A stretch of 64,000 nucleotides of DNA, taken from Salsipaludibacter albus (GTDB taxonomy: Bacteria > Actinomycetota > Nitriliruptoria > Nitriliruptorales > Nitriliruptoraceae). The stretch lies in assembly GCF_019798055.1 (NCBI RefSeq), contig NZ_JAHOPH010000002.1, positions 62,001 to 126,000 on the forward strand, in the 5' to 3' direction. Shown here in pieces: positions 167 to 27,253 of this stretch (positions are counted from its first letter, which is position 1; every line of letters starts with the position of its first letter). The notes under the pieces were generated by a model. It was given only the letters and a program-made list of their open reading frames with translations, was not told the DNA's origin and searched no databases. The translations under genes were made by a program, and so were the position numbers.

Positions 167-215
167 TGCTCCAGGTGGCCGCGGACCGTGCTGGCCGGGC
201 CGATCAGGAGGAAGC

Positions 216-5246: not shown

Positions 5247-5324
5247 CCGGTGTGATCTGGTCCCCTGTCGGGGAGCCGCCCCGCTCGGTCGCGAGCGCCC
5301 CGTCACGAACACGAGAGTCCCCCC

Positions 5325-8300: not shown

Positions 8301-11300
8301 GCGGTGCCCGACACGGTCGAGGTGGTCGCCGGCACGCAGCGTGGGCTGCTGGACGTCCTCGTCAACGACCTCGACCCCGACGGCGACCGCCTCGTGGTGA
8401 CCGACACGTCCGACGTGCGGCTCGGGGAGGTCGCGATCGCGCCCGGTGGCACGGGCGTGCTCTACACCCCGCCGGACGTCCCCGAGGACGGCCAGGACCG
8501 CGACCTCGCCTTCCGCTACTCGATCGACGACGGCGCCGGCCACACGGTCGACGGCACGGTGCACGTCACCGTGCTGGCCGAGGCCGAGCCCGTGCCACCG
8601 GTCGCCAACGACGACCAGGCCGGCCCGACCACGGCCGGTGAGGCAGTGGTCGTCGAGGTGCTCGCCAACGACCTCGACCCCGACGGTGACCCGGCCGACC
8701 TCGACGTCTCCTCCGACGATCCGGCCGTGCGGGTCCGCCCCGACGGGCGCGTCTCGATCACGCCGGGGGACACGACCCGCAGCTACGTCTACGAGGTCAC
8801 CGACGCCGACGACCTGACGGCGTCGGCCGCGGTGACGGTGATCGTGGTGGACAACCGGGCCCCGGTGGTCGAGTCTCGCCAGGTCGAGACCGCCTTCGAG
8901 ACCCCCGTGGAGGTCGACGTCACCGGCCAGGCCAGCGACCCGGACGGCGACCGCCTCCTGTTCGTGTGCTGCGACCAGGTCCGCGGCGGCACCCCCGAGA
9001 TCACCTCGGCCGACGCCACGACGCTGGAGGTCCGGTTCGTGCCCAACCCCGGCTTCGACGGCGAGGCCGGGTTCGCCTTCACCGTCGACGACGACAACGG
9101 CCACCAGGTCGCCGGCAGCGTGCTGGTCACGGTGGAGCCGGAGGCCAACCGCCCCCCCGAGGTCGCCGATCGCGAGGTGACGGCCGAGGTCGGACGCACC
9201 ACCACGCTGGACCTCGCCGGCCTGGTCACCGACCCGGACACCGAGGACGAGCACACCTTCGAACTGTCCGAGCAGGGCGGCCCGATGTCGTTGTCGCGCT
9301 CGGGTGACCGGGTCGTGATCGATCCCGAGATCACCGCCACCGGCCAGACCGGGACCTTCGTGGTCACCGCCACCGACGAGGCCGGCAACACCGGAGCCGG
9401 ACGCGTCACGGTCCCGCTGACGGCCTCGACCCTGCCCCCGCCCGTCGCCACCGGGGACCGGGCGCGCACGACCCAGGGCGTCGAGGTGTCCGTGCCCGTG
9501 CTGGCCAACGACATCGGTGACGGCCTGCGGGTCGTGTCCGCCTCGTCCCCGGACGGGACCGCCGACGTCCGCGGCGACCAGGTCGTGTTCCGACCCGACA
9601 ACGACTTCTTCGGCACGGCGGTCGTCACCTACACCATCGGGGACGAGCAACGGACCGAGGCACGCCAGGACACCGCACAGGCCCGGGTCGACGTCATCGG
9701 CTTCCCCGGCAAGCCGGCCACGCCACGGGTGGTCGCCGACTCGCGCGAGGCGACGATCAACTGGTCGGCCCCGGCGGCAAACGGCTCGCCCATCGACGGC
9801 TACGAGCTCGAGCACGACCAGGGTGGATCGCAGGCGCTGGGAACGTCGACGACCCACCAGTGGACCGCGCTCGACAACGGCACCTCCTACCGCTTCCGGA
9901 TCCGTGCCACCAACGAGGCCGGGCCCAGCCCGTGGTCCGACTGGTCACCCGCCGTCATCCCCAACGAGGTACCGGGTCGCCCGGCCGCCCCGCAGGTCGA
10001 CTTCGCCGACGAGGCGCTGGACGTCGACTGGACCGCCCCGGCCAACGACGGGACGGCGATCCTGCGCTACGAGCTCGAGATCGGCGGCGGCACGACCGGC
10101 TCCCGCGAGATCCCGCCGGGCGGTTCCCGGACCGCCTACACCTGGGAGGGGCTGTCCAACGGGACCAACCACCAGTTCCGGGTCCGGGCGATCAACGCCG
10201 CCGGCGAGTCGGCCTGGTCGAGCTGGTCGGCCACCGAGCACCCGCTGACCACCCCGGACGCACCCGAGGTCGGCGACGTCAGCAACGGTCCCAACTACCT
10301 CCAGATCAGCTGGAACCGACCCTACGACGGTGGCGACACCATCCAGCGCTACCAGGTCCAGCGGCGGGACGCCGGCGGGGGATCCACCTCCGAGGCGTCG
10401 GTGTCGGGTGCCTCGACGACCTCCTACCGCTGGGGCGACCTGCCCAACGGCAAGGAGTTCCAGTTCCGGGTCCGCGCCATCAACCGGGCCGAGGCCACCT
10501 CCGACGGCTGGTCGGCGTGGTCGGCCCCCGCCAAGGCCTGCGACGTGCCGGACCGGCCGGGCGCACCGGGCGCGAGCCGGGGGGACCGCCAGGTCGACGT
10601 GAGCTGGAGCGCACCGGGGGCGAACGGTTGTGGCATCACCGGCTACGACGTGCAGCACGACCAGGCCTCCACGGTCCGGACGGCCGGCGCCTCGGCGACC
10701 TCGCTGAACTGGTCCGGGCTGACCAACGGCACGACCTACCGGTTCCGGGTCCGCGCCGGCAACGAGCAGGGCAGTGGCGGCTGGTCGGACTGGTCGTCGG
10801 CCGCCACCCCGGCCGGTGCGCCGTTCGCCCCGCCCGGCTTCTCCGGCGCGCCGGTGACGGGCGAGAACGGCCACGTCCGGCTGACCTGGAACGCGGCCGA
10901 CGCCAACGGTGCGGGCATCGACCGCTACGAGGTGCGGGTGAACGCCGGACCGTGGCAGGGCGTGGGTGGGGCCGGCACGCGTGCCCACACCGTCACCGGA
11001 CTCAACCCGGGCACCACCTACACCTTCCGCGTGCGGGTCGTCAACGCGGTCGGGCCGGGCGAGGTGTCCTCCACCAGCGTCGCCGCCAGGGGCTACCCCA
11101 GCCGGATCGGTTCGCTGTCGGTCAACGAGTCCACCCGTGGCCAGCTGACCTGGAACTGGGGCGCGCCGTCGGGCAACGGCGGCGGCGTGGACGAGTACCG
11201 CGTCCAGCGGGACGGCGCCGCCAACGTGACGACGTCGTCGCGGACCTACACCTGGCGCAACCTGGGTGACAACGTCACCCGTCGGGTCCAGGTGCGTGCC

Positions 11301-11732
11301 TGCAACGAGTACGGCTGCAACCCGGACTGGAGTCCGTGGCAGGCCGGCACGACCCAGGCGCCGCCTCCGCCACCGCGGACGATCACCATCACCCGTGGCG
11401 CCGACTCGGGCTGGGACGCGGACTGCACCTCCAACCTGTGCCACTACGCCCGGGTCAGCATGTCGGGGTGGGCGGCCAACCGGACCTACAACTACTACTG
11501 CCAGTTCCGCAACGAGAACACCGGCGCGCTGACCTACACCGGCGGCCCGTGGAGCTCGATGCACGACGGGTCGTCCATGCGCACGAACGGCTCCGGCTCG
11601 TTCGGCCCCAAGGACGCCCACTGCTTCATGCAGGGCGACCCGTGGGACCGCGAGGTCCGGATCGGCATCACCGCCAGCGGCAGCAGCACCGTGATCCAGT
11701 GGTCGGCCTGGTCCGACTGGCCACAGGGCTAG
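5325..11732 (+). CDS. Giant exported protein with cadherin/Ig-like and FN3 repeats
   Basis: A 2135-residue protein. An N-terminal signal segment (residues 1-30: Arg-rich, then a hydrophobic core) is followed by a region of repeated short beta strands (about 33-365) that may be a propeller, and an acidic Glu/Asp linker to about 405. Eleven cadherin/Ig-like repeats then run to about 1458. They carry signatures such as NRPPVA and VLxNDxDPDGD, a known calcium-binding type of motif. Six FN3 domains follow (about 1460-2018), with the recurring YRFRVRAxN and WSxWS patterns. The C-terminal 117 residues contain five Cys, and no sortase motif or anchor helix is visible. The protein is probably exported and attached to or released from the envelope. 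It starts the operon-like run of MoxR-DUF58-transglutaminase genes. Confidence 0.85.
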   Translation: MALSARRLRGVASLTVAVVAASSIAFTAIQADGRPASTEETNDGGAWLLDRRASAVGHVNRATREVTGAVRAADAGSDFWVDQSADTVLVHNTSNQSISVVDGRTYAATATAPVGFPADVAAVDGGVTIATIEPLQVWQMPVSEFTALDTDLADVDATIASTAPGQAVVTPTDVVVAADADGVGHWLFPDGRQEEVDLPLEAELVGVTALGDDLVAVDAGGRLAVSAPGGTASLVESDPAALEGVTWQQPGPAAPMVVGTRADGATVVVDRASGEVETAVALDGQDPVAPIVHGGCVFALVQQPATFARQCGEDVAETPISGHGGGPLTMRLVNGWVWINAVDTGQAWVVDEQGDLEEVDDVGDALEQDEEETEEDPEEGESTRQRQDNEADEVGTADKLDDDGRNEPPTANPDEVVGRQGDPIVVNVLANDTDPDGDVLLVTSAGTRDDTALVEVTADQRYVQVTPPVDFTGVVTFEYAISDGRGGTDGTTSTLEVVPDDEADNQPPTPETDFVAAAPGAAASVNVLDNDTDPEGDSLVLLEIEGEGATVVSAPDGEVTVTPDEAAAGELELGYTVADSFGATASGRVRVDVRTVEEANRPPDARNDSGTTTVGKPIVFNLLDNDADPDGDRITVSGPPTSVSTPSGGDEVYTSLSPDGVFLIEAPVAGDYVFRYQVSDGAFSDEAQIRVLVREEEENRPPVAVRDDAVIPAGATRVVQALRNDGDPDGDVIAITGWTGSPGLVVERIEGIGFRVTALPTASPREVFTYEVSDGVNDPVLATVVVTVSEATGEDQRPVAKPDVVEVQPGQSVAVPVLRNDFDPEGGSLEVVTITERDDATLAVGGAGQSVIVTLPGSARLGFTFGYEITDDAGNRASTTVEVQVVQPGDRNRPPVAVPDITTTLERTPVVVDVLGNDSDPDGDALQVESIASQPVGGSARVLEDGTLEYTPLGDFTGTDRFDYALVDARGARVTGQVLVGVMLPDENRPPIAVPDTVEVVAGTQRGLLDVLVNDLDPDGDRLVVTDTSDVRLGEVAIAPGGTGVLYTPPDVPEDGQDRDLAFRYSIDDGAGHTVDGTVHVTVLAEAEPVPPVANDDQAGPTTAGEAVVVEVLANDLDPDGDPADLDVSSDDPAVRVRPDGRVSITPGDTTRSYVYEVTDADDLTASAAVTVIVVDNRAPVVESRQVETAFETPVEVDVTGQASDPDGDRLLFVCCDQVRGGTPEITSADATTLEVRFVPNPGFDGEAGFAFTVDDDNGHQVAGSVLVTVEPEANRPPEVADREVTAEVGRTTTLDLAGLVTDPDTEDEHTFELSEQGGPMSLSRSGDRVVIDPEITATGQTGTFVVTATDEAGNTGAGRVTVPLTASTLPPPVATGDRARTTQGVEVSVPVLANDIGDGLRVVSASSPDGTADVRGDQVVFRPDNDFFGTAVVTYTIGDEQRTEARQDTAQARVDVIGFPGKPATPRVVADSREATINWSAPAANGSPIDGYELEHDQGGSQALGTSTTHQWTALDNGTSYRFRIRATNEAGPSPWSDWSPAVIPNEVPGRPAAPQVDFADEALDVDWTAPANDGTAILRYELEIGGGTTGSREIPPGGSRTAYTWEGLSNGTNHQFRVRAINAAGESAWSSWSATEHPLTTPDAPEVGDVSNGPNYLQISWNRPYDGGDTIQRYQVQRRDAGGGSTSEASVSGASTTSYRWGDLPNGKEFQFRVRAINRAEATSDGWSAWSAPAKACDVPDRPGAPGASRGDRQVDVSWSAPGANGCGITGYDVQHDQASTVRTAGASATSLNWSGLTNGTTYRFRVRAGNEQGSGGWSDWSSAATPAGAPFAPPGFSGAPVTGENGHVRLTWNAADANGAGIDRYEVRVNAGPWQGVGGAGTRAHTVTGLNPGTTYTFRVRVVNAVGPGEVSSTSVAARGYPSRIGSLSVNESTRGQLTWNWGAPSGNGGGVDEYRVQRDGAANVTTSSRTYTWRNLGDNVTRRVQVRACNEYGCNPDWSPWQAGTTQAPPPPPRTITITRGADSGWDADCTSNLCHYARVSMSGWAANRTYNYYCQFRNENTGALTYTGGPWSSMHDGSSMRTNGSGSFGPKDAHCFMQGDPWDREVRIGITASGSSTVIQWSAWSDWPQG

Positions 11733-11808
11733 CACGCCCCCGCTCCCGACCGGCGCCCGAACACGCCGGCTCGGTCCACACCACCAGACACCGAACGGCC
11801 CCGAACCC

Positions 11809-12780
<972 letters not shown>

Positions 12781-12782
12781 GC

Positions 12783-13955
12783 GTGTCCCGCCTCGCCCCA
12801 CTCCGACGGTTCGTCCCGCTCACCGGGACGGGCCTGGTCGTGCTCGTGGCGGGGGTGGGGTTCTGGATCCTGGGCTGGCGGCTGGGCTGGGTCGAGGCAC
12901 TCATCGTCGCCGCCGGCTGCCTGCTGGCGGTCCTGGTGGCCGTCCCGTTCGTGGTGGGTCGGCTGCGCCTGGAGGTCTCCCGTGACCTGGAACCGGTCCG
13001 GGTGATGGAGGGCGAGCCCGCCCTGGCCGTGCTGACCGTCACCAACACCACGTCGCGTCCCCTGTCGCCCCGCACGGTCGAGGACACCGTCGACGACCAA
13101 CGCCTCGAGGTCGAGGTGGGCGCGCTCAAGCCCGGCGAGTCGATGGAGTCGGTCTACAACCTGCCCACCGACCGACGCGGCCGCCACGTGATCGGGCCGG
13201 CGATGATCGTCAAGGCCGACCCGCTGGGGTTGATGCGACGCGAGGTCGTCCAGACCCGCCAGGACGTCCTGTGGGTGCATCCACGGCACCGGGTCGTGGC
13301 GTCCCTGCCGGTGGGCTTCGCCAAGGACCTCGAGGGACCGACGTCGGACGCCTCCCCGGCCGGCGACGTGGCGTTCCACGCCCTGCGCGAGTACCAGGTC
13401 GGCGACGACTACCGCCACATCCACTGGCTGTCGACGGCGCGCGCGGGCGAGGTGATGGTGCGTCACTACGTCGACAACCGGCGACCCCACCTGGGCGTGG
13501 TGCTGCACGACCGTCGGGCCGACTGGGAGGACCCGGACCGCTACGAGCTGGGGGTGCGGATCGCCGCGTCGCTGTCGGTCTCCTCGATGGTCCACCGCCA
13601 GCCGGTGTCGACCCTCCACGGGACCGACACGATCCTGGGTGCCCGACACGCCGGGACGAGCGAGGACCTGCTCGACCGCCTGACCGAGGTCCGGGCGGGG
13701 GAGGGTGCCAGCCTGGCCGACGCCGTCGGGCACCTGCGACGCACCGAGCTGCAGGTGTCGGCCACGGCGTTGGTGGTCGGCCCGGGCGTGGCCCGCGACG
13801 ACCTCCTGGCATCGGTGCGCAGCGCTCGCCGGCTGGGCCGGGTCGTGCTGGTGCGGGTGGACGCCCCGGAGCCGTTGGCCGTGCCGGGCGCCAAGGTGCT
13901 CGAGGTCGCGGCGCTGGACGAACTGGTCGCCGCCTGGAACCGGATGGTCCGATGA
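12783..13955 (+). CDS. DUF58 membrane protein (MoxR partner)
   Basis: A 390-residue protein with two hydrophobic segments in the first 60 residues, then a beta-rich domain. The DUF58 hallmark REYQVGDDYRHIHWLSTAR lies near residues 200-220, followed by a VWA-like fold. The GTG at 12783 lies 2 bp after the MoxR stop; the stop itself overlaps the next start as ATGA. DUF58 proteins are regular partners of MoxR ATPases and of transglutaminase-like membrane proteins, which is exactly the gene order here. The substrate is not known. Confidence 0.85.
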   Translation: MSRLAPLRRFVPLTGTGLVVLVAGVGFWILGWRLGWVEALIVAAGCLLAVLVAVPFVVGRLRLEVSRDLEPVRVMEGEPALAVLTVTNTTSRPLSPRTVEDTVDDQRLEVEVGALKPGESMESVYNLPTDRRGRHVIGPAMIVKADPLGLMRREVVQTRQDVLWVHPRHRVVASLPVGFAKDLEGPTSDASPAGDVAFHALREYQVGDDYRHIHWLSTARAGEVMVRHYVDNRRPHLGVVLHDRRADWEDPDRYELGVRIAASLSVSSMVHRQPVSTLHGTDTILGARHAGTSEDLLDRLTEVRAGEGASLADAVGHLRRTELQVSATALVVGPGVARDDLLASVRSARRLGRVVLVRVDAPEPLAVPGAKVLEVAALDELVAAWNRMVR

Positions 13956-16219
13956 GGGGTCGGATGCCACTCCACCTCACCGGGCTGGCGGTCGTCGTCG
14001 CCCTCCTGGCCGCGTTGTCGCTGGTCCCGGCGATCGGCTTCGGCAGCGTCCTGGCCGGCTGGTCGTTCCTGTGGGCACCGATCGTGGCCGTGGTGGCCGC
14101 GGGTGCGGTCACCGTCTTCGCCCAGTGGCGCCGGTTGCTGGTCGGCGAGTCGATCGCCCTGTCGCTGGTGATGTTCCTGCTGGTCGGTGTCGTGGCGATC
14201 GGTGGCAGCCCCACGCCGGCGGCGGTCAGCACGTTCCTGCACGGCCTGGTCGACGGCTGGGCCGAGCTGCTGACCTCGTTCGCGCCGGCCGACGTGACCC
14301 CGACCTTCCTGGTGCTGCCCTACACGCTGGCGTGGCTGGGGATGCTGACCGGTGGCGAGATCCTGCGTGGCACGACCACGCCCGGGCTGCCGGCGCTCGG
14401 ACCGCTGGTGATGCTCGGCGTGTCGGTGCTGTTCTCGATCGAGAACCGCGCGATCGCGATCACCCAGGGGGTGGCGGCGGTCCTGTTGACCCTGGTGCTG
14501 GGGCTGGTGCAGCAGGCCCAGCAGCGCACGACCCGGTCCGACCTGACGACGGGGTCGAGCCACCGGTGGCGGGGTCGCGGCCTGGTCGCCGCGGTCGCGT
14601 TGCTGGTGCTGGTCGTCGCCCTGGCGCCGGTGCTCGGACCCCGCCTGCCGGGGGCCGACGCCAACCCCCGCTTCGAGCTGCGCGAGCGACTCGAGCCACC
14701 GTTCAACCCGCTCAACCTCCCGTCCCCGCTCGCCCAGGTCAAGGGCGAGCTGGAGGGCGACCGCGCCGAGGAGGTCGTGCTGCGTGTGACGACCGACGAG
14801 CCCGTGCGGCGCTGGCCGGTGGCGGTCATGGGCAGCTACGACGGGCGCGTGTGGACGGTGGCCGAGTCGGCCGACAGCGGGGCGGGGCAGTACCGCCCGG
14901 TCGACACCCAGTTCCCGGCCGTCGACGACGGCGAGGTGGACCTGTCCGTGGACCCGGTCGAGGCGACCGTGCAGGCCGTCGACCTCCGGGACAACTGGCT
15001 CCCCACCCCCGGCTGGCCACGCCGACTCACCAGCCCCGACGAGCTCGACGTGCGCTACAACGAGGTGACCGGCAACGTCGTGCTGCCCCAGCGGGTCCCC
15101 GACGGCGCCACTTGGACCGTCACCGCCGTGCCCCGGGTCGAGGTGGACGACGAGGCCATGGCCGGCGTCGACGTCGCCCTCGAGGAGGCCGGGTCCGACC
15201 TGGCGGCGGTGCCACCCGTGCTGCGGACCCTGGCCGGCGACCTGGTCGAGGGGCTCGACCCGGGCTGGGAGCAGGTCGCGGCGATCCGGGACCTGCTGCT
15301 GGAGGACGGCTACTACGACCTGTCGCCGGAGACCCCGCCGGGCCACAGCTTCTTCCACCTGTCGCGGTTCCTCGAGGACCCCGAACGGATCGTCGGGTTC
15401 GAGGAGCAGTACGCCGCGTCGGCTGCCGTGCTGGGGCGACTCGCCGGGGTCGGCGTCCGCGTGGTGGTCGGCTACGACGTGCCCGCCGAGCGCTTCGACG
15501 ACCGCCCCACGGAGATCCGCGCCGGCGACCTGTCGGCATGGGTCGAGGTCCGGGCGGACGGGTTCGGATGGGTGCCGGTGGACGTCACCCCGACCGACGA
15601 GTCCGCTCCCGAGGCGTCCGAGGCCACCCAGACGGTCGAGGACGTGGCGATCCCGAACCCCCCGCCGCCTCCGCCCCCACCGCCACAGGTGGAGCGACCC
15701 GAGCAGCCGCCGGTCGAGGAGGAGTCCGAGGAGCCCGAGGAGGACGACGAGGACGAGGCGGCCACCGGACCGAACCTGCCGATCCTCGTCGCCGGCGTGG
15801 GCATCGGGATGCCGCTGCTGGCGCTCGGGCTGTTCATGGCTGTCGTGCTGGCACTGAAGGCCCGCCGACGGCGCCGCCGCGAGCACGCGCCGGACGCCGC
15901 GACCCGGCTGTCCGGGGCGTGGGAGGAGCTGCGCGACCGCTTCGACGAGCGCGGGCTGCGGGCGACGCCCACGGCGTCTCCCCGCGAGGTCGCGTTCGCC
16001 GTGGCCGACCGCTTCCCGTCGGCGCGTGGCGTGATGGTCGACCTCGCCGACCGGGTGGACCGGGGTGCCTTCCACCCGCTGCCGCCCGACGACGAGACCG
16101 CGGCCGGTGCCTGGACGCTGAGCGACGAGGCCAGCCGCGAGCTGGACCGGGACCGGTCGACGTGGGAGCGTTGGCGCGCCAGACTGAGCGTGGCGCCACT
16201 GCGCCGGAAGGACACGTGA
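13952..16219 (+). CDS. Multi-pass transglutaminase-fold protein lacking catalytic Cys and His
   Basis: A 755-residue protein. About six membrane helices (residues 5-230) are followed by an external region with a transglutaminase-like domain (about 440-550), a Pro/Glu-rich linker, another membrane helix (about 610-635) and a cytoplasmic tail resembling DUF4129. In active relatives the domain reads G-Y-C-E-Q-F-A and H-A-W-x-E-V. Here the first is G482-F-E-E-Q-Y-A (Cys replaced by Glu484) and the second L-S528-A-W-V-E-V (His replaced by Ser). The Asp of WVPVDVTP (544) remains. It is therefore probably a non-enzymatic binding module. Start and stop overlap both neighbours. Confidence 0.85.
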   Translation: MRGRMPLHLTGLAVVVALLAALSLVPAIGFGSVLAGWSFLWAPIVAVVAAGAVTVFAQWRRLLVGESIALSLVMFLLVGVVAIGGSPTPAAVSTFLHGLVDGWAELLTSFAPADVTPTFLVLPYTLAWLGMLTGGEILRGTTTPGLPALGPLVMLGVSVLFSIENRAIAITQGVAAVLLTLVLGLVQQAQQRTTRSDLTTGSSHRWRGRGLVAAVALLVLVVALAPVLGPRLPGADANPRFELRERLEPPFNPLNLPSPLAQVKGELEGDRAEEVVLRVTTDEPVRRWPVAVMGSYDGRVWTVAESADSGAGQYRPVDTQFPAVDDGEVDLSVDPVEATVQAVDLRDNWLPTPGWPRRLTSPDELDVRYNEVTGNVVLPQRVPDGATWTVTAVPRVEVDDEAMAGVDVALEEAGSDLAAVPPVLRTLAGDLVEGLDPGWEQVAAIRDLLLEDGYYDLSPETPPGHSFFHLSRFLEDPERIVGFEEQYAASAAVLGRLAGVGVRVVVGYDVPAERFDDRPTEIRAGDLSAWVEVRADGFGWVPVDVTPTDESAPEASEATQTVEDVAIPNPPPPPPPPPQVERPEQPPVEEESEEPEEDDEDEAATGPNLPILVAGVGIGMPLLALGLFMAVVLALKARRRRRREHAPDAATRLSGAWEELRDRFDERGLRATPTASPREVAFAVADRFPSARGVMVDLADRVDRGAFHPLPPDDETAAGAWTLSDEASRELDRDRSTWERWRARLSVAPLRRKDT

Positions 16220-16869
16220 TGACCGACGGCGACCACCGCCGTGACCCGTCCCGGGAGCCCGACGACGCCCGGGACCGGCCCGCTGACCCCCTGGACGACG
16301 ACCGGACCGTGGCGGCCGACGACCTCGACGCCCTGCTGGCGGAGGTCGACGAGATGCCTCCGGAGCCGGTGGACGACCTGGCCGACGACCGGACCGTTGC
16401 CGCCGACCCGGCGCCGGACCCCGCCCCGATCGACGACGACCTGACGGTCCCGGCCGACGACCTGCCGCCGACGACCTCCGACCCGGCGCGGGAGCGGACG
16501 GGCGACGACCCGTGGATCCGCCCCACCCCGGACCGGCCGGCGACGCCTCCCGCGCAGACCTCGCCGGCCCCGACCACCTCCGAGCCGACCGCTCCGGCGC
16601 CCACCGCCTCAGAGCCGCCTGCGCCCACCGAGCCGGCTGCGCCCGAGCCGACGGACGACCACACCGTCGAGTCCGGGACCAAGCACCCGGTGGTCGCACC
16701 GGCGGGGGCCGCGCCCGCCATGGTCGACGACGACGAGCGATGGCGCCCACCCACCCGGACCGGCGGAGCGCTCGCGACCGGGAGCACGCGGTCGTGGCCG
16801 GCCTTCCTGGTGCCTGCCGTCGCCATCGTGGTGGTCGCGGCGATCATCCTGCTGGTAGTGCTGTTGTGA
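16219..16869 (+). CDS. Tail-anchored disordered protein with repeated DDxTV motifs
   Basis: A 216-residue protein. Residues 1-190 are acidic and Pro/Thr/Ser-rich with little predicted structure. The last 25 residues are a strongly hydrophobic helix (AFLVPAVAIVVVAAIILLVV), giving a C-terminal membrane anchor with the bulk in the cytoplasm. Four near-identical sites occur: DDDRTVAADD, ADDRTVAADP, DDDLTVPADD and TDDHTVESGT. Threonines in acidic surroundings followed by a hydrophobic residue are typical kinase targets and FHA ligands. Lying between the transglutaminase-like gene and the PP2C and FHA genes, it is a good candidate for a membrane docking platform. This is inference; no homologue is recognised. 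Confidence 0.75.
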   Translation: MTDGDHRRDPSREPDDARDRPADPLDDDRTVAADDLDALLAEVDEMPPEPVDDLADDRTVAADPAPDPAPIDDDLTVPADDLPPTTSDPARERTGDDPWIRPTPDRPATPPAQTSPAPTTSEPTAPAPTASEPPAPTEPAAPEPTDDHTVESGTKHPVVAPAGAAPAMVDDDERWRPPTRTGGALATGSTRSWPAFLVPAVAIVVVAAIILLVVLL

Positions 16870-17663
16870 GCCCCACGCGACTGGACGACGACGACACCAT
16901 TCCGACCGACGGCCAGGCCGCGCTGGCCGACCTCGCCGCCGGGCTGGAGCTGGTCGTGGCCGACTGGGGTGTCGCCAGCGCGACCGGTCGGGTCCGCGAC
17001 GTCAACGAGGACGCGTGGGGCCAGGACGGCCGACGGTTCGTCGTGGCCGACGGGATGGGCGGCCACGAGGGCGGTGCACTCGCCTCGCGCACCGCGGTCC
17101 GCGCCTTCCTCGCCGGTGATGCGGAGGCACCCTGGGCCGAGCAGGTCGCGGTCGTCAACGACCGGGTCCGGGCGGCTGCGGACCAGGCCGGGACACCCGG
17201 TGCCGGGACCACGATGGTCGCGGTGCGGGTGCGGGGCCGAGGTGCCACGATCGCCTCCGTGGGGGATTCGCGGGTCTATCGCTGGCGCGGCGGCACGGTC
17301 GACGCGGTGACCGCCGACCACACCCTGGCCAGCGACCTGCTCGCGGTCGGCGTGAACGCCGACCGACAGCGGCGGCGTGGCGTCCGGGTCAGTGGCCTGA
17401 CCTCGTTCCTGGGGGTCGAGCCGGCCCGGTTGCGGGCCGACGTCACCGAGGTCGAGCTGCGCCACGACGACCGGCTCGCTCTGGTCAGCGACGGCATCCA
17501 CGGGCAGCTGGACCGTGCCACGGTGGCCGGGCTGGTGGGACGGGACAGCCCCCAGGCGGCGGCCGACGCGCTGGTCGCGGCCGCCGAGTCGGCCGGTGGG
17601 CGGGACAATGCCACCGCGCTGGTCGTCGAGCTGGCGCTGGACGCGACGGAGGACGGATCATGA
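16866..17663 (+). CDS. PP2C-family Ser/Thr phosphatase
   Basis: A 265-residue PPM/PP2C phosphatase. Metal- and phosphate-binding motifs are visible in order: RDVNEDAW, VADGMGGHEGG, GTTMVAV, SVGDSRVYRWRGG, LVSDGIHGQL and GGRDNATALVV. It starts at a GTG inside a GTGA overlap. The first 15 residues contain DDDDTIPTD, the same acidic-Thr motif as the neighbouring tail-anchored protein, so the phosphatase itself may be a phospho-target. It presumably reverses phosphorylation by the kinase encoded at 3657-5072. Confidence 0.92.
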   Translation: MSPTRLDDDDTIPTDGQAALADLAAGLELVVADWGVASATGRVRDVNEDAWGQDGRRFVVADGMGGHEGGALASRTAVRAFLAGDAEAPWAEQVAVVNDRVRAAADQAGTPGAGTTMVAVRVRGRGATIASVGDSRVYRWRGGTVDAVTADHTLASDLLAVGVNADRQRRRGVRVSGLTSFLGVEPARLRADVTEVELRHDDRLALVSDGIHGQLDRATVAGLVGRDSPQAAADALVAAAESAGGRDNATALVVELALDATEDGS

Positions 17664-19060
17664 GCGAGCGCGACGGGACCGGGATCCGGGTGGCCGGGCT
17701 GCAGGTCGCGCCCGGCGAGGGACGACTCGCCCGCAGCGACGACGCGGTGCTGTTCGTCCCGGCGTGGGACGATGGTGCGGACGCGCTGCTGGCGGCCTTC
17801 GCGGACGCCCCGGCCGGTGGCGCCGTCGACGCCGTGACCACGGCCGTGGTCGAGCACGAGTTCGCGGTGCCCCCGTTCGCCTGCCTGGCGTGGTCGTCGG
17901 TGCTGTCGCTGGTCGTGTTCGGTGACCTCGCGGTCCAGACCGACCATCCGGCGGTGCCGCTGTTGTCCGGCGCCGGGTCACGCACCTGGGTCGAGCACAC
18001 CCTGCGGCGTGCCGCCGACCGCGTGGTGGTCACGGTCGACCCGCCCGAGGGCGACCCGCCCAGCGACCTGGTCGCCGGGGTCGTCCCCGCCGCCGGCTTC
18101 GCCCTGGAGCTGGTCGGGACCACGGGGCCTGCCAGGGGGCCTGCGACGGGGCCGTCCGCGGGGCATGCCGATGCGGCCCCGGAGCCGGCGAGCACGCACG
18201 AGCCCGAGGTCGTCACCGGCCACGCGGGACAGGTCGTGTCCGGCTCCGCCCCGGTCCCGGCCGTCGACCCGGAGCCCGCGTCTCGGCCGGACACCGACGC
18301 CCCCTCTCCGTCCCTGGACCCCGAGCCCTCCCCGCCGCCTGCGTCGTCGCGCCCGGAGTCGTCACCTTCGTCGGCCTCGGACGTGTCGCCGTCCCGGGAA
18401 CCGTCATCGGACGACCTCGACCTCCCACCGGCCGTGGGGACCCAGGACCTCGACTCCCTGGAGGCCATTCGGTCGGCCGTCGTGGGCGACCAGTCCGCCG
18501 CCGCCGCGTCGGGCACCGCGCCACCCGCGCCGCCCGCCGACGCGACGAGCGAGGACGCCGAGACGGACGGCGGAACCGCACGACTCGACACCCCGACGAC
18601 GGTGCTGGGCGGGCCGGCGCTGGTCGAGGCCAGCACCTGCCCCCAGGGCCACCTGACCCCGGCCGGATCGACGTCCTGTCGGGTGTGCGGCGTGGGCATG
18701 GCCGGAGATGCCGACGTCACGACGGTCCGTCGACCCCAGCTGGGCGTGCTGCGACTCGACGACGGCAAGATGCTGCCGCTGGACCGCAACTACCGGATCG
18801 GTCGTCGCCCGTCGGCCGACGACACCGCGACTGCGGCCCAGATCGAGGGCGAGAAGATCTCTCGGACCCACGTCGAGGTGGTCCTGCGTGGCTGGGACGT
18901 GCTCGTGCGGGACTGCGACTCGACCAATGGCACCTGGGTGGCCTCGGGACCGGACGAGCAGTTCCGCCGGGTCGACCCCGACGTCCCCGTGCGCATCGAG
19001 CCGGGCGCAGTCGTGCGCCTGGACCAACGGACCTTGACCTACGACGGCCCCGCCCGCTGA
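17660..19060 (+). CDS. Zinc-ribbon and FHA-domain protein
   Basis: A 466-residue protein. The N-terminal 160 residues form a compact unknown domain, followed by a long Pro/Ser/Asp-rich linker to about 300 that includes TPTTVLGG. A zinc-ribbon-like stretch follows with CPQGH and CRVC (about 325-350). The C-terminal FHA domain has YRIGRRP, the phospho-Thr contacts SRTHVEV and STNGTWV. It starts in an ATGA overlap with the phosphatase and ends the coupled operon. It presumably reads threonine phosphorylation made by the local kinase. Confidence 0.88.
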   Translation: MSERDGTGIRVAGLQVAPGEGRLARSDDAVLFVPAWDDGADALLAAFADAPAGGAVDAVTTAVVEHEFAVPPFACLAWSSVLSLVVFGDLAVQTDHPAVPLLSGAGSRTWVEHTLRRAADRVVVTVDPPEGDPPSDLVAGVVPAAGFALELVGTTGPARGPATGPSAGHADAAPEPASTHEPEVVTGHAGQVVSGSAPVPAVDPEPASRPDTDAPSPSLDPEPSPPPASSRPESSPSSASDVSPSREPSSDDLDLPPAVGTQDLDSLEAIRSAVVGDQSAAAASGTAPPAPPADATSEDAETDGGTARLDTPTTVLGGPALVEASTCPQGHLTPAGSTSCRVCGVGMAGDADVTTVRRPQLGVLRLDDGKMLPLDRNYRIGRRPSADDTATAAQIEGEKISRTHVEVVLRGWDVLVRDCDSTNGTWVASGPDEQFRRVDPDVPVRIEPGAVVRLDQRTLTYDGPAR

Positions 19061-19392: not shown

Positions 19393-19656
19393 ATGGCACA
19401 GTTGGGTGCAGACGTCGAGCAGCTCGCCGCGCTGTCGCGCAAGTTCAACGAGGTCTCGGGCCAGATCGAGAGCATGGCCCAGCAGATCACCTCGCAGGTC
19501 GAGAGCGCCTGGTGGCAGGGCCGGGACGCCGACCGCTTCCGCAGCGAGTGGCGCAGCCACCACAGCCAGCTCAAGAACGCGGCCCAGCGGCTCGAGCAGG
19601 AGGCGCAGCGGGTCAAGAAGCAGGAGCAGCAGCAGCGCCAGACATCGGGCGCCTGA
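19393..19656 (+). CDS. WXG100-family protein (EsxA-like)
   Basis: An 87-residue protein of canonical WXG100 size. Two helices flank the turn motif W-W-Q-G (SAWWQGRDADRF), and the C-terminal tail is Gln/Lys-rich. The ATG at 19393 has AGGAGCAGG 3-12 bases upstream. It is followed by a strong convergent terminator hairpin and then by the 3' end of the EssC-type ATPase gene. It is the most typical secretion substrate of the three WXG100 proteins in the window. Confidence 0.93.
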   Translation: MAQLGADVEQLAALSRKFNEVSGQIESMAQQITSQVESAWWQGRDADRFRSEWRSHHSQLKNAAQRLEQEAQRVKKQEQQQRQTSGA

Positions 19657-19716: not shown

Positions 19717-22700
19717 TCAGTGGGCGACCTGGACCAGGGTGAGCGTGCCGCCGTCGGAGTGGATGGCGCGCCCGACCGGCCAGGCCTGACGGGTCCGGGG
19801 CAGGTCGGCGTTGGCGAGGCTGGCATCCATGTCGCTGTCGGGCTGGAGCAGCAGGATCCGGCGACCGCGCTTGAGCGTCGACATGACGTCGGACCACGCC
19901 GAGCGGGCCAGCGACACCTCGCAGGTCGCGACCAGGGTCACGTGGGGCTCGCGCATCAGTTCGTGCAGCGGCAACTCTGCGGGGCCCTCGAACAGTTCGT
20001 GGACGTCGTCGACCAGCACCAGGATCGGCTCGGGTCGGGCCGCCAGGGCGCGCACCGCCACCTCCACGTCGTCGGCGCCGACGTGTTGGGCGACCCCGCG
20101 GGGCAGCCCGGGCACCGGTCGCTTGCCCGCGAACACCACGACCGGCACCCCGGCCCGGCTGGCGCTGGTCGCCAGCGTCGCGACGGTGGTGGTCTTGCCG
20201 GACCGTGCCGGCCCGGTGATCAGCAGGTCGTCGGACGGGTCGAGGGTGAAGGGCTCGAGCCGGTCGGTCAGCCCGATGCCCAGCCTGCCCGTGCCGTTGG
20301 TCGCAACCTCGGCCAGCGCGACCGTGTCGCCGAGCACCCGCACCTCGGGCCCGGGCCGGGCGCCCCGACGTTGGAGCGTGGCCCCCAGCCGACGCAGGGT
20401 GGTCGCCTGGCCGGCGGTGGTCAGGTCGTCGCCCGCCAGCGCGACCTGCACGACGTGCTCGCCGTCGACGGCTCGGCCCGCCGGCTCGTCACCGTCGACC
20501 AGGTCGGCGTCCACGCCCAGGTTGAGATACTCGTCGAGCGTCGCCAGGCGCAGGACCAGCCGCCGGCCCACGGTCGAGGTCAGCATCATCGGGAACGAGT
20601 TGCGACGCGTCCCGGTCAGCACGAAGTGGACCCCGACCCCGCGACCGTCGCCGACCAGGCGCAGCAGCAGGTCGAGCCACTGGCCCCGGTCGATGCGCTC
20701 CCAGGCCTGCACGAAGGTCTCGAAGCCGTCCACCAGCACCAGGATGCGCTGCATCGCCTCGCCACTGTTGCGGCGGTACTCGGCCAGGGAGGCGGCCTGG
20801 TGACGCATGAAGCGCTCGCCACGCTCCTCGACCAGCTCGGCCAGGTCGCCCAGCATCCGGGTCACGCGCTCGTGGTCGTCGCCGGTCACCAGGCTGCCGA
20901 CCTGCGGCAGGGGGCTGAGCATCTCGAGCCCGCGTCCGGCCGCGTCGATGCCCAGGATGCCGACCGGGTGGTCGTCGTCGGTCAGGCACGCGGCCGTGGC
21001 GATGGTGCGCAGCGCGGCGGTCTTGCCGGAGCCGCCGACGCCGTAGACCAGCATCGAGCCGTCCCGGTCGGGGTGGAACGCGGCGACCTGCTGCGACTGG
21101 CTGGCCGGGTCGTCGCGGACCCCGATCGGCAGGCGGTCGTCGCGTCCCGTGCGGGGCAACCTCAGGAGGTCGTAGTGCTCGGCCAGCGGGTCCAGCCAGG
21201 GCCGGCGGGGGACGGGGGAGCCCGTGTCGCGGAAGGCGGTCGTGATGGTCGTGACCAGCCGTTCGAGGTCGGTCGGTCCGGTGTCGGTGTCGGTGGCCCG
21301 GGTGGGGTCGGGCCATGGGCGGACCGTGCCGAAGCCGACCGAGGCGACCTCCAACTCGACTCGCTCGGTGTCCTCGGCGCCGGTGTGCCCACCGACGTAG
21401 CCGGCCTGGAACGAGATCAGCTCGCTCGGCCCGAGCCGGGCGACGCCGCGGCCGGGGGTGGAGCGGTCGATGGTGGCGGCGACCGGTGAGTCCAGCACGT
21501 CGGTCGACTCGTCCTCGGACGCGACCCGCAACGCCACCTTGAGGTTGGTGTTGGCGCGGATGTTGGGCGTGATGACCCCGGCGGGACGCTGGGTCGCGAG
21601 CAGCAGGTGCAGGCCGAGGCTGCGCCCCCGCTGGGCGACGTCGACCACGCCGTCGACGAACTCCGGCACCTCGGTGGCCAGCGCGGCGAACTCGTCCACC
21701 ACGATCACCAGGCTGGGTGGGGTGAGGGGGTGGCGCTCCTTCTCCATCTGGAGCTGGTCCTTGGCGTTGGCCTCGTTGAGGAGGTGCTCGCGCCGGTGCA
21801 GCTCGGCCCGCAGCGACGTCAGGGCGCGACGCACCAGTGCCTGGGTGAGGTCGGTCACCAGCCCGACCGTGTGGGGCAGGTGGGTGACGTCCTTGAACGC
21901 CGCACCGCCCTTGTAGTCCACCAGCAGGAAGTTGACCTTGTCGGGACTGTGGGTCGCGGCCAGTGCGACCAGCAGGCTCTGGAGGAACTCGGACTTGCCG
22001 GCGCCGGTCGTGCCCGCGACCAGGCCGTGCGGGCCGTCGTGGCGCAGGTCGATCGAGAACACCCCGCCGGCACCGGCACCGACCGCTCCCCGCAGCCCAC
22101 CCCCGGGCTGGGACTCGCCCCACCGCGCCCGGACGACGCCGGGGCGGTCCAGCAGGTCGGGCCCACCGAGCAGGTCGACCAGCGAGGCGCGGCCCGGCAG
22201 CCCGACGTCCCGGGACTGGCGGGACGACACGTCCACGATCGGCGCGAGGTCGCGGGCCAGCCGTTGGGCGGCGGCGCGGTCGAACAACTCGACCGGGACG
22301 TCGTCGAACGTGCGGGCCTCGTCGACCTCGGCGATGCGGGCGTTGGCGCCACCCGGCGCGATGTTGACGACCGCGCCACAGGTCTTGGGGATCCGCCGGC
22401 CCGACGACGCCACCCACACGACGTGGATCCCGGCCCGGGGTCCGACCTCCAGCAACCCGGTCAGCCGGGCCCGCTCCAGGGGCAGGTCGTCGTCGACCAC
22501 CACCACGACGTGCGGCGTCGTGACGACGTCGCGGCTGTCGCGGTCGTCGCCGATGCGCTGCTCGATGGTGGTGCCGAGGTCCTTGAGCAGCGCGAGCGCG
22601 TCGTCGACGGTGGCGGCGAGGTGGTTGACCCCGATCGGGCTGAGCGGCGCCCGGGTGTGGGGGAGCCAGGTCAGCCACTCCCAGTCGGCCCGGCGTGGCT

Positions 22701-23991
22701 CCGACAGCAGGGCGCACACCACCACCTCGGAGGGGGAGTGCAGCGCCGTCACCTGGGCGACGATCGAGCGGGCGGCGTGGGACGCGAACGGGTCGGGACC
22801 GGACACGCCGATCGAGCCGGTCCGGGCCAGCCCGACGGCGACCGGGACCGGGGGCAGGTCGGCGTAGCGACGGGGGATTGCGGCCAGTTCCTCGCGCAGC
22901 TCGCGGCCACCGCTGGTCGGCAGCGCGATGTCGATCCGGGCGGGCTGGGGGGCCAGCCCGAGGCGGACCTGGAGGAAGTCGGGGTCGCCGGGCTCGCGCT
23001 CCCACAGGCGCGGGGACAGGTCGCGGACGTGGTCGTCGAGCTGGTTGACCGCGGGCGAGGCCGCGAACCGGGCCTCGACCTCGGTGTCCTGGGCCGACTC
23101 GATCGCTGCGACGGCGCGGTCGCGGTCCTCCTCGAAGACCTCCAGGCGTTCCGCGTAGTCGGCCCGGCCGCTGCGCTTGGCGTCCCAGAACGACCCCATG
23201 ACCATCAGGGGGCTGAGCGCGAAGAAGACCATCGTGAGGATGCCCATCCCGAACGCCCACATGATCCCGCCCATGGCGAGGGGGGCCAATGCGGCCGCCA
23301 TGGGGAGGCGTTGCTTGCCGGGCTTTTCGGGTGGGGCGGGCAGTTCGATGCGGGCCTGGGGCAGGGGTCGCTGGATGCGGGGTGGCCGGTTGAACTCCAC
23401 CGACGGACCCAGCACGTCCCCCAGTGCGGCCTCGGCCTGCTCGACGAACAGGGTGGTGTCGCCGATGCGGATCTCGTCGCCGTTGCGCAACCGGCGCGGG
23501 GCGACCACCGCCACCCCGTTGACGGCGGTGCCGTTGGTCGACCCGAGGTCCACCACCTCGATGACGTCGGACGCGACGAGCTTGGCGTGGCGCCGGGACA
23601 GCAGGTCGTCGTCGATCGCGACGTCGACGTCAACCGAGCGACCGATGATGGTCTCGCCGGCGGGGATCTCGACCCAGCGCGGGGCACTGTCGGTGGTGAC
23701 GACGCGGGCCCGGCCGACCAGCCGACGCCGGCCGGGGTCGCGCAGTCCGGAATCGGGGGCGAGCCGGACCGCGTCACCGGACTGCAGGTCGGCCTGGGCC
23801 AGTGGCAGGTCGCGGGCCAGCGTGGCGCGGGTGCGGCTGAGCCGTTCGAGCGTCGCGGCACCACCCCACGTGACCGGGTACCGATCGACGAGGCGGTCGA
23901 CCAGGTCGCCCACGGTGGTGCGGTCGTCGAACGACGCCAGCAGGTCGGTGGTGGCGTCGTCGTGGCCCAGCACGAAGCGCAGCTCGAACAT
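19717..23991 (-). CDS. EssC/EccC-type FtsK-SpoIIIE ATPase with ubiquitin-like and FHA domains
   Basis: A 1424-residue motor of a type VII secretion-like system. Residues 1-80 resemble a YukD/ubiquitin-like fold ending in SGDAVRLAP. An FHA domain follows (about 105-185: IIGRSVDVDVAI, LSRRHAKL, LGSTNGTAVNG). Two adjacent membrane segments lie near 227-263. Three FtsK/SpoIIIE-like domains follow, with Walker A motifs GTTGAGKS (about 659), GVGGSGKT (about 985) and GPARSGKT (about 1262). Walker B of the first is LVIVVDEF. The ATG at 23991 is preferred because GGGAGGTG lies 6 bases upstream; a GTG at 24000 overlaps the upstream stop but has its Shine-Dalgarno too close. The FHA and YukD-like fusion resembles Firmicutes EssC/YukBA more than mycobacterial EccC. 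Confidence 0.9.
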   Translation of the reverse strand: MFELRFVLGHDDATTDLLASFDDRTTVGDLVDRLVDRYPVTWGGAATLERLSRTRATLARDLPLAQADLQSGDAVRLAPDSGLRDPGRRRLVGRARVVTTDSAPRWVEIPAGETIIGRSVDVDVAIDDDLLSRRHAKLVASDVIEVVDLGSTNGTAVNGVAVVAPRRLRNGDEIRIGDTTLFVEQAEAALGDVLGPSVEFNRPPRIQRPLPQARIELPAPPEKPGKQRLPMAAALAPLAMGGIMWAFGMGILTMVFFALSPLMVMGSFWDAKRSGRADYAERLEVFEEDRDRAVAAIESAQDTEVEARFAASPAVNQLDDHVRDLSPRLWEREPGDPDFLQVRLGLAPQPARIDIALPTSGGRELREELAAIPRRYADLPPVPVAVGLARTGSIGVSGPDPFASHAARSIVAQVTALHSPSEVVVCALLSEPRRADWEWLTWLPHTRAPLSPIGVNHLAATVDDALALLKDLGTTIEQRIGDDRDSRDVVTTPHVVVVVDDDLPLERARLTGLLEVGPRAGIHVVWVASSGRRIPKTCGAVVNIAPGGANARIAEVDEARTFDDVPVELFDRAAAQRLARDLAPIVDVSSRQSRDVGLPGRASLVDLLGGPDLLDRPGVVRARWGESQPGGGLRGAVGAGAGGVFSIDLRHDGPHGLVAGTTGAGKSEFLQSLLVALAATHSPDKVNFLLVDYKGGAAFKDVTHLPHTVGLVTDLTQALVRRALTSLRAELHRREHLLNEANAKDQLQMEKERHPLTPPSLVIVVDEFAALATEVPEFVDGVVDVAQRGRSLGLHLLLATQRPAGVITPNIRANTNLKVALRVASEDESTDVLDSPVAATIDRSTPGRGVARLGPSELISFQAGYVGGHTGAEDTERVELEVASVGFGTVRPWPDPTRATDTDTGPTDLERLVTTITTAFRDTGSPVPRRPWLDPLAEHYDLLRLPRTGRDDRLPIGVRDDPASQSQQVAAFHPDRDGSMLVYGVGGSGKTAALRTIATAACLTDDDHPVGILGIDAAGRGLEMLSPLPQVGSLVTGDDHERVTRMLGDLAELVEERGERFMRHQAASLAEYRRNSGEAMQRILVLVDGFETFVQAWERIDRGQWLDLLLRLVGDGRGVGVHFVLTGTRRNSFPMMLTSTVGRRLVLRLATLDEYLNLGVDADLVDGDEPAGRAVDGEHVVQVALAGDDLTTAGQATTLRRLGATLQRRGARPGPEVRVLGDTVALAEVATNGTGRLGIGLTDRLEPFTLDPSDDLLITGPARSGKTTTVATLATSASRAGVPVVVFAGKRPVPGLPRGVAQHVGADDVEVAVRALAARPEPILVLVDDVHELFEGPAELPLHELMREPHVTLVATCEVSLARSAWSDVMSTLKRGRRILLLQPDSDMDASLANADLPRTRQAWPVGRAIHSDGGTLTLVQVAH

Positions 23992-23996
23992 CGACG

Positions 23997-24623
23997 TCAC
24001 CTCCCGTCGGGGGTCGGGCGCGGCAGGGTCGCGACCAGGGTCGTGGCGGCCCGGTCGTGCAGCACCTGCAGGTCGCCGCCGGCGTCGGTCACCTGGCCAC
24101 GAAGCAGGTGCAGGCCCATCCCATCGCCGGTCGCGTCGGGCCGGTGGTCGGACCCGTCCTCGCCATGGTGCAGCCTGCCGGTGGACCGCGCCACCACGGT
24201 GACCTCGGTGTCGTCGGTGTCGGCGTGCAGCTCGAGCAGCCCGTCGACCCGGTGTGCGGCGGTGTTCGCGGCGGCCTCGTCGACCAGTGCCACGACGGCG
24301 GCGGCCACCGGCGGGTCCACGGACGCGTCGCCGGACCTCGCGCCGACCTGCACGGTCAGCCGCCCGGCGTGGCGCCTGCGGGCCTCCTCGGCCGCGTCGG
24401 CCAGCACCCGGTGGACGTCCGCGACGCCGTCGTCGTCCGGGGGATCACGCAGCAGTCCGCGGGCCAGGTCGTGCGCCCGGTCGACTGCGTCGCCGGCCGC
24501 GTCGACGTCCCCGGCGTCCAGCCGTCGGCGGGCGTCGACCAGGGTCGGGACCAGGTGGGTGTGCACGGTCGCCCGCAGCGCCGCCAGCCCGGGCGCCCCG
24601 TCGGGCGGGGTCGGGTCAGCCAC
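23997..24623 (-). CDS. Histidine-kinase-like ATPase, soluble
   Basis: A 208-residue protein with no membrane segment or input domain. The N-terminal half is helical with a possible phospho-acceptor region (VHTHLVPTL). The C-terminal half has a GHKL-type fold: N box ALVDEAAANTAAH and G box GDGMGLHLLRG. It starts at a GTG at 24623 that overlaps the end of the response-regulator gene by 8 bp, and its stop lies 5 bp before the EssC-type start. The partner is clearly the response regulator encoded just upstream. It could be a kinase or an anti-sigma-like ATPase; the lack of a clear H box makes kinase activity uncertain. Confidence 0.75.
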   Translation of the reverse strand: MADPTPPDGAPGLAALRATVHTHLVPTLVDARRRLDAGDVDAAGDAVDRAHDLARGLLRDPPDDDGVADVHRVLADAAEEARRRHAGRLTVQVGARSGDASVDPPVAAAVVALVDEAAANTAAHRVDGLLELHADTDDTEVTVVARSTGRLHHGEDGSDHRPDATGDGMGLHLLRGQVTDAGGDLQVLHDRAATTLVATLPRPTPDGR

Positions 24624-25251
24624 GGACGTACCAGGAGCCGATCAGGCCATGTTCGCGGGCCTGGCGGACGGCGTCGCCCCGGGTGGCGGCGCCGAGCTTG
24701 CGACGGATGCTGGTGACCTGGGTCTTGACGGTGTCGACGCTGGTGAAGCGGGCCTCGGCCACCTCGGCGTTGGTGAGGTGGAGGCTGAGGTGGCGCAGCA
24801 CGTCGACCTCGGCCTCGGTCAGCCCGAACTCCTCCTGGCGTCGCAGGGCGCCGGCCAGCTCGGGGGTCAGCATCGGCAGGTCGGAGTCCGGGGTCTCCAG
24901 GACGTGGGCGACCGCCTGTTCGAGCGGGTCCGTGGAGGCGCCCTTCTGCAGGAACGCCCGGACCCCGTGGCCGAGGCTGGCGAGGATGTCGGTGTCCAGC
25001 GCCCAGGTCGAGTAGACGATCGTGGGGACCTCGGCCTCCGCGAGGGCGGCGAGGGTCTCCCACGACGGAGGGGCGTCGGGGCCGTCGAGGTAGAGGTCGC
25101 AGACGACGACGTCGACGTGGTCGGGGGACAGGAACGGCTGCAGCGACGCGTGGTCGGCGACGGGTCGCACGTCGTGGCCGGCCTGGCCGAGGATCGCGGC
25201 GAGGCCCTGCCGGGTCACGGCGGTGTCATCGACGACGATGATCCTGCCCAA
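24616..25251 (-). CDS. NarL/LuxR-type response regulator
   Basis: A 211-residue regulator. The receiver domain (residues 1-120) has acidic DD at 8-9, the phospho-acceptor Asp in VVVCDLYLDG near 52, Thr/Ser in YSTWA and Lys in AFLQKGA. The LuxR-type helix-turn-helix follows (about 145-205: LTEAEVDVLRHL, TSVDTVKTQVTSIRRKLG). The start is a TTG at 25251 with GAAGG 8 bases upstream. It is first in an apparent operon with the histidine-kinase-like ATPase and the EssC-type ATPase, so it may control the secretion genes. Confidence 0.88.
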   Translation of the reverse strand: MGRIIVVDDTAVTRQGLAAILGQAGHDVRPVADHASLQPFLSPDHVDVVVCDLYLDGPDAPPSWETLAALAEAEVPTIVYSTWALDTDILASLGHGVRAFLQKGASTDPLEQAVAHVLETPDSDLPMLTPELAGALRRQEEFGLTEAEVDVLRHLSLHLTNAEVAEARFTSVDTVKTQVTSIRRKLGAATRGDAVRQAREHGLIGSWYVRG

Positions 25252-25445
25252 CGTGCTGCCTTCGACTCGGGTCGACCCCGTCCGGGTGCCCCGTGTGGCC
25301 GGTGCCTCGATCCGGACAGCCTAGGCGGGTGGGGCCGCCGGGCAATCGTCGAACGCTTTCGTTGGTCCACGTCCCCTGTGGGTGGGCCTGACACGCGCGA
25401 GTGCGGCTACCCTTCGGGGCGGTCCTGACACGCCAGGAGGCCGCC

Positions 25446-25712
25446 GTGGTCCAGCGAGGAGGCGATCCCGCGCAGATGCGCCGGGTCGCGGCCCGGATGG
25501 AGGACGAGGCCGCCGCGATGGAGGGTCACCTGCAGCGTCTGCTGGAGGAGGCCGACGCGGCGTTCTGGCAGGGGGCGGACGCGGATGCCTTCCGCGAGCG
25601 GCTCAACGCCGAGCACACCACGGCCGTCACGCGCACGGTCGAGTCGGTCCGCACGGCGGCGCGCGAGATGCGACGCCAGGCCGCCGACCAGGAGCGCACG
25701 TCGGCGGGCTGA
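25446..25712 (+). CDS. WXG100-family protein (EsxB-like)
   Basis: An 88-residue WXG100 protein with the turn motif FWQGADADAF between two charged helices. The GTG at 25446 is preceded by AGGAGG 5 bases upstream; earlier starts add 15 residues and have no such site. It is divergent from the response-regulator operon. Together with the proteins at 216 and 19393 it gives three WXG100-type substrates for the single ATPase. Confidence 0.9.
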   Translation: MVQRGGDPAQMRRVAARMEDEAAAMEGHLQRLLEEADAAFWQGADADAFRERLNAEHTTAVTRTVESVRTAAREMRRQAADQERTSAG

Positions 25713-25844: not shown

Positions 25845-25868
25845 GGCTCCTTGACTGGAGTATGGGGA

Positions 25869-27098: not shown

Positions 27099-27109
27099 CC
27101 GGCGTTCGG

Positions 27110-27139
27110 TTGGCCGCGTGGCCGACCCACCGCTACCCT
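27110..27139 (+). promoter_or_regulatory. Candidate promoter of tRNA-Ile
   Basis: TTGGCC (27110-27115), an 18-bp spacer and TACCCT (27134-27139) give a plausible housekeeping promoter 17 bp before the mature tRNA end. Confidence 0.5.
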
Positions 27140-27156
27140 CGCCGACCGCACCTCTC

Positions 27157-27231
<75 letters not shown>

Positions 27232-27253
27232 CACCGAGACAGCGGCTGAAGCT

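Follow-up and report, generated by a model that had tools for sequence, protein, structure and literature searches.

The 64,000-nucleotide stretch of the Salsipaludibacter albus genome analyzed here (contig NZ_JAHOPH010000002.1, positions 62,001 to 126,000; hereafter the window) encodes a motor ATPase of the type VII secretion system (T7SS) superfamily, with a ubiquitin-like (Ubl) domain and an FHA domain fused ahead of three ATPase domains. With a probability of about 0.6, we consider this motor to belong to a phosphothreonine-gated T7SS. The domain anatomy of the protein, the conserved gene cluster around it, its placement in a third lineage of motors and its signatures of phosphothreonine recognition are direct observations, and secretion itself is a prediction.

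The motor open reading frame (19717..24000, minus strand) specifies 1427 amino acids (aa) from a GTG start, with an alternative ATG at 23991 that was taken as the start in the original prediction, made from the DNA letters. Pfam matched an FHA domain at residues 117–180 (E 6.8e-17) and an FtsK_SpoIIIE domain at residues 644–807 (E 4.9e-56). Three canonical Walker A motifs (GTTGAGKS at residue 663, GVGGSGKT at 987 and GPARSGKT at 1263) mark the P-loop ATPase domains (19720..22071, minus strand), and only the first domain carries a D-E Walker B. Hydropathy places one or more hydrophobic membrane segments at 23185..23304 (minus strand), which align with the membrane region of EccC and YukB. Matches to EccC (4nh0, E 3.9e-75 over 382–1256) and YukB (9qks, E 6.7e-69 over 188–940) identify the protein by homology as a member of the T7SS motor superfamily (EccC/EssC/TsxC), a membrane-anchored FtsK/SpoIIIE protein with three ATPase domains.

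The N-terminal residues 1–87 (23740..24000, minus strand) had no Pfam match by sequence. AlphaFold, run with 31 related sequences, modeled them as a beta-grasp fold (pLDDT 89–91, mean 89; pTM 0.78) in the order beta-beta-alpha-beta-beta-beta. Of the solved structures listed as matches, the Ubl domain of EccD1 (4kv2; Z 10.0, root-mean-square deviation 1.8, 75 aligned residues, 21% identity) had the lowest deviation and the highest identity, followed by the Ubl domains of EccD3 and EccD5. Other beta-grasp domains reach similar scores (talin F0, Z 10.7), so that descent cannot be read from fold rank by itself, and the T7SS context adds the rest. The Ubl sequence pattern is kept across 36 aligned relatives and is therefore a family trait rather than a peculiarity of the window; the domain occupies the position where the first FHA domain of EssC would stand. 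Pfam, the Walker A motifs, the AlphaFold model and the EccD1 match together bear out the predicted combination of ubiquitin-like, FHA and three ATPase domains, including the fold whose absence from a structural model had been named as grounds for giving it up.

The same prediction had called the motor EssC-type, a label that did not survive phylogenetic comparison with EssC and EccC. In a tree of 1170 columns, the window motor was sister (support 99) to 23 other Actinomycetota motors, mostly from loci of the PFNA type described below. Its clade joins two others, one of Streptomyces/Curtobacterium and one holding the genome's second motor copy and a motor from a T7SSd-like Rothia locus, in a single group (support 98) that is separate from EccC (support 100) and EssC (support 100). 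A second tree, restricted to the first ATPase domain and given an FtsK outgroup, returned EccC, EssC and the window group as three separate branches whose branching order was not resolved. By sequence, and with limited sampling of EssC, the motor is thus a third, actinobacterial lineage, apart from both. Like EssC of T7SSb, it has an N-terminal FHA domain, a transmembrane region and three ATPase domains, but EssC has two FHA domains lacking the phosphothreonine site instead of one, and T7SSb has a separate EsaB together with EssA, EssB and EsaA. EccC of T7SSa (ESX) belongs to the same motor superfamily, and the cytosolic domain of EccD has the same ubiquitin-like fold, whereas EccC itself has neither FHA nor Ubl. 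Across the phylum, 55 of 296 genomes gave a motor match; by our count, about 28 of them have a match that starts within the Ubl or FHA region, and these represent the third lineage. In the sister clade, motors of Streptomyces and kin (L042, L111, L113, L116, L120–L122) have lost the phosphothreonine residues of their FHA domains; several adjoin WXG100 genes, one adjoins a very large putative T7SS-secreted protein, and they are mostly without PFNA genes.

Comparison of 80 named actinobacterial loci with motor relatives revealed a conserved cluster, with a common order on one strand of Ig/FN3 giant, MoxR, DUF58, transglutaminase, FHA protein, PP2C, FHA protein, kinase, motor and WXG100. It recurs in dozens of loci from Micrococcaceae, Microbacteriaceae, Promicromonosporaceae, Nocardioidaceae and others, and an Arthrobacter plasmid carries it complete except for the WXG100 gene, none being detected there. 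In gene content this set matches the bifidobacterial PFNA operon, composed of pkb2, fn3, aaa-atp (a MoxR AAA ATPase), duf58, tgm, prpC, a hypothetical gene and fha (PMC8430577). The kinase, FN3 protein, MoxR ATPase, DUF58 protein and transglutaminase that define it occur together, by gene content, at 3657–16219 of the window, with the kinase divergent; prpC and fha also have their counterparts there. The Bifidobacterium operon differs in having been described as a host-signaling system, with no mention of an FtsK-like motor, WXG100 or type VII secretion (PMC8430577, PMC6803598).

The FHA domain of the window motor (23437..23721, minus strand; PF00498) keeps the phosphothreonine-contact residues R121, S135, H138 and N156, and its top structural matches include the phosphothreonine-binding FhaA, EmbR and GarA. 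Of the fetched relatives that have PFNA-type genes in reach, 49 of 51 motors keep all four contact residues, vs. 19 of 30 motors without such genes. A second signal came from linkers in the kinase, PP2C and FHA proteins, where we counted a motif made up of two or more acidic residues, then Thr and a hydrophobic residue, with R/K at +3. After thinning to about one locus per genus, 59 linkers remained, and the motif occurred in them 33 times against a shuffled mean of 1.4 (maximum 7), an enrichment of about 20-fold, whereas its Ser version occurred once against a shuffled mean of 1.5. Because the motif was derived from the full set and only afterwards counted in the thinned one, the more reliable comparison is with the Ser control from those same sequences; as the Ser version is not enriched, composition is an unlikely cause. 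We infer from these patterns that the linker threonines may be phosphosites and FHA ligands. Both tests are circumstantial and favor coupling between FHA domain and kinase, lending support to the earlier suggestion that FHA binding ties secretion to the local Ser/Thr kinase. Under the name T7SSd, the literature already describes FHA-bearing T7SS motors of Actinomycetota that are accompanied by a kinase gene (PMC11217815). An intact site in the window motor and in nearly all cluster-linked motors, a kinase with HRD and DFG motifs, and linkers with a Thr-specific motif all argue against a purely structural role, in which FHA and Ubl would hold a pseudokinase or other partner without phosphorylation. 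That arrangement has a precedent in EssC, whose FHA domains have no phosphothreonine site and engage the EssB pseudokinase (PMC11217815), and for the window motor we regard it as improbable.

Within the window, the full PFNA-type gene set lies in about 25 kb (3657–25712) in rearranged form, with the kinase facing outward at the left end and the motor running back in from the right. The kinase (3657..5072, minus strand; Pkinase E 3.8e-45) has HRDIKPQN and DFG motifs and one transmembrane helix. On the plus strand follow a 2135-aa surface protein with an N-terminal signal-anchor and, by Pfam, Ig (Big_9) and FN3 repeats (5325..11732), a MoxR-type AAA ATPase (11809..12780; AAA_3 E 2.8e-62), a DUF58 protein (12783..13955; Pfam search) and a TgpA-type membrane transglutaminase (13952..16219; TgpA_N E 1.4e-19, Transglut_core). 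Between the transglutaminase and a PP2C phosphatase (16866..17663; PP2C_2 E 3.1e-11) stands a 216-aa protein without a Pfam match (16219..16869), whose disordered cytoplasmic part with four acidic-TV repeats (DDRTV) and single C-terminal transmembrane helix recall TsdH/TseK; an FHA-domain protein with a long acidic linker completes the row (17660..19060; FHA E 7.9e-10). The motor start codon overlaps the stop (GTGA) of a preceding HATPase_c gene (23997..24623, minus strand; Pfam E 8e-4, below cut-off), placing the motor in one operon with this histidine-kinase-like ATPase and the LuxR-type response regulator encoded first (24616..25251, minus strand; Response_reg E 5e-11, GerE E 2e-7). With a kinase, PP2C, FHA protein, MoxR, DUF58, transglutaminase, Ig/FN3 giant and one-helix membrane protein present, the system is not the minimal one originally envisaged.

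The three WXG100 proteins of that prediction were recovered on the plus strand with PF06013 E values of 1e-4 to 4e-4, below the curated cut-off, and are the only Pfam WXG100 matches at E < 0.01 in the genome. They comprise an 87-aa EsxA/TsxA candidate beside the motor (19393..19656; E 2e-4, core match near 19408–19632), a 103-aa protein (25401..25712; E 1.6e-4, core near 25464–25685), and a WXG100 domain with a 120-aa tail, a candidate substrate (201..821; E 4e-4, core near 234–458). A profile built from these loci detected a fourth WXG100-like N-terminus to the left of the window (L008:8969-9985). There and at L064:14819-17462 and L099:14928-16217, the WXG100 domain precedes long helical, hydrolase-like or glycine-rich tails, making these proteins candidate substrates. 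The product of L008:10046-10783 was considered as an EspG-like chaperone and set aside, being a mere impression with no Pfam match.

Many loci carry a WXG100 gene directly 3′ of the motor, and in many other relatives none lies within reach. The latter observation, together with the host signaling and TNF binding by FN3 described for the PFNA operon (PMC8430577), would fit a surface-adhesin and signaling system whose FtsK-like ATPase serves to export or assemble either the Ig/FN3 protein or polymers of the cell wall, with the WXG100 proteins as bystanders. We give this explanation little credence: the motor is homologous throughout to EccC/EssC, the WXG100 genes adjoin it in the loci just mentioned, and the Ig/FN3 protein has its own signal-anchor and can use Sec.

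For a phosphothreonine-gated T7SS, we envisage that the motor would hexamerize in the membrane, its first ATPase domain driving export of WXG100 dimers and WXG100-led proteins. The fused Ubl may act in cis like the cytosolic domain of EccD in ESX, and perhaps like EsaB/YukD in T7SSb, by docking on the motor's first ATPase domain. Phosphorylation by the transmembrane kinase would target acidic-linker threonines of the kinase itself, PP2C, the FHA protein and the one-helix membrane protein; binding of these linkers by the motor FHA domain would recruit or activate the motor, and PP2C would reverse the process. The MoxR/DUF58/transglutaminase module could assemble or anchor the giant Ig/FN3 protein across the envelope, and the response regulator and kinase-like ATPase of the motor operon would control motor transcription in this species.

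Several points weigh against this interpretation. Eleven of the 13 dead FHA sites among the fetched relatives have no PFNA-type gene in reach (Fisher p 2e-4), but most fall in one Streptomyces clade and therefore represent few evolutionary events, making the test phylogenetically non-independent. The FHA domain might bind targets of another kinase, and the docking of Ubl on the ATPase domain is proposed by analogy only. All three WXG100 matches of the window are sub-threshold, and kinase and motor lie on the strand opposite to the other cluster genes, about 15 kb apart.

Of the named systems, T7SSd (Garrett, Higginson and Palmer 2024, PMC11217815) is the closest, sharing much of its parts list with the window. 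Both are from Actinomycetota and combine an FHA motor with an intact phosphothreonine motif, a transmembrane Ser/Thr kinase, a large Ig-like envelope protein, a one-helix transmembrane protein and WXG100, all present in the window by gene content. The locus could therefore be a plain T7SSd (TsdA, C, D, H, I), with the kinase as TsdD, the Ig giant as TsdI and the one-helix protein as TsdH. We consider this unlikely, though the strongest of the alternatives. The window motor carries a Ubl domain whereas T7SSd is reported without a ubiquitin-like protein, and its cluster further includes MoxR, DUF58, transglutaminase, PP2C and a stand-alone FHA protein; PFNA, MoxR and transglutaminase are nowhere mentioned in that account of T7SS variants. 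Moreover, the most T7SSd-like locus found, on Rothia terrae plasmid p2, has its motor in a different clade and lacks PFNA genes. T7SSe of Bacillota shares with the window a kinase, a PP2C-type phosphatase, an FHA protein, a one-helix protein, an Ig protein and extra WXG100; it differs in phylum, in encoding its ubiquitin-like protein as a separate gene rather than fused to the motor, and in having no reported MoxR, DUF58 or transglutaminase (PMC11217815).

The Rothia locus (L130, 2854-14370) encodes a kinase, a WXG100 protein annotated as a pyrophosphorylase, the motor, and DUF6531 and Rhs proteins/toxins. By eye, its motor begins with a recognizable Ubl and FHA stretch, suggesting that the ubiquitin-like component of T7SSd is fused to its motor. 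Tentatively, and with rather less assurance than for phosphothreonine gating as such, we propose an undescribed, Actinomycetota-wide T7SS subtype, whose motor, equipped with its own EsaB/EccD-type Ubl and a live phosphothreonine sensor, would work with the PFNA module (MoxR-DUF58-transglutaminase-Ig/FN3). The missing Ubl of T7SSd would reside in its motor, as apparently in Rothia, and the bifidobacterial PFNA operon, known from work on host cytokine sensing, would belong to such a secretion system. This reading joins two literatures (T7SS variants and the PFNA operon) that are unconnected in the papers searched, and it could explain why T7SSd was reported to lack a ubiquitin-like part. It also offers a testable switch, made up of a kinase, a phosphatase, repeated candidate phosphosites and a motor-borne phosphothreonine sensor. 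If it is true, many soil and gut actinobacteria have phosphorylation-controlled secretion, by genes annotated only as FtsK-like and hypothetical.

The proposed search of the genome for EccB, EccD and mycosin or EsaA and EssB was run with profiles; the positive controls were Mycobacterium plasmid pMA100, which carries a complete ESX, and a Listeria replicon with a complete T7SSb. No EccB or EccE was found in the genome, while pMA100 was positive for EccB, EccD, EccE and mycosin; EssB/YukC and EsaA were likewise missing from the genome, with a positive Listeria control. The YukD profile for the YukD/EccD ubiquitin-like part gave a best genome match of E 0.15, the EccD transmembrane-domain profile not being searched. 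The best mycosin match reached 181.6 bits against a cut-off of 278.75 (97 bits under), and this lone subtilase on contig C42, having no T7SS neighbors, was dismissed as a T7SS part. A full ESX core elsewhere that groups with the motor would have spoken against the prediction; the searches found no full ESX or Ess core, and genome-wide, as predicted, EccB and EccE were lacking and no YukD/EccD or mycosin match exceeded its cut-off. At 97% genome completeness over 79 contigs, absence of the T7SSa and T7SSb core components is likely rather than certain. No separate EsaB/YukD gene was found in the genome, and the same fold is fused to the motor instead.

The second Ubl-FHA motor of this genome (contig C9, 8395-12564) belongs to a different clade, has relatives within the same class, and lies directly downstream of genes that by eye resemble those of a Tad pilus (CpaB-, CpaE- and TadC-like); for its different clade and surroundings, it was rejected as a partner of the window locus. 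In a same-genus relative, a fragment of the orthologous motor at a contig end (G001:C82:22552-23302, L140; 74–87% nucleotide identity) is all that is present. T7SSf is not reported in Actinomycetota; a T7SSf-like locus in an Actinomycetota genome of GC content 0.64 (L143) encodes YukD as a separate protein, together with an FHA protein, helical proteins resembling WXG100 and putative substrates that are long and helical. Genome G142 has a different, T7SSf-like locus. Genome G252 has the order motor-WXG100-kinase-Ig and, with no phosphoketolase match, is unlikely to be a Bifidobacterium. In S. albus, the whole cluster stands between gyrA (L008:11569-14340) and a DUF3566 gene with tRNA-Ile (25851–27232 of the window), genes that are usually neighbors in actinobacteria.

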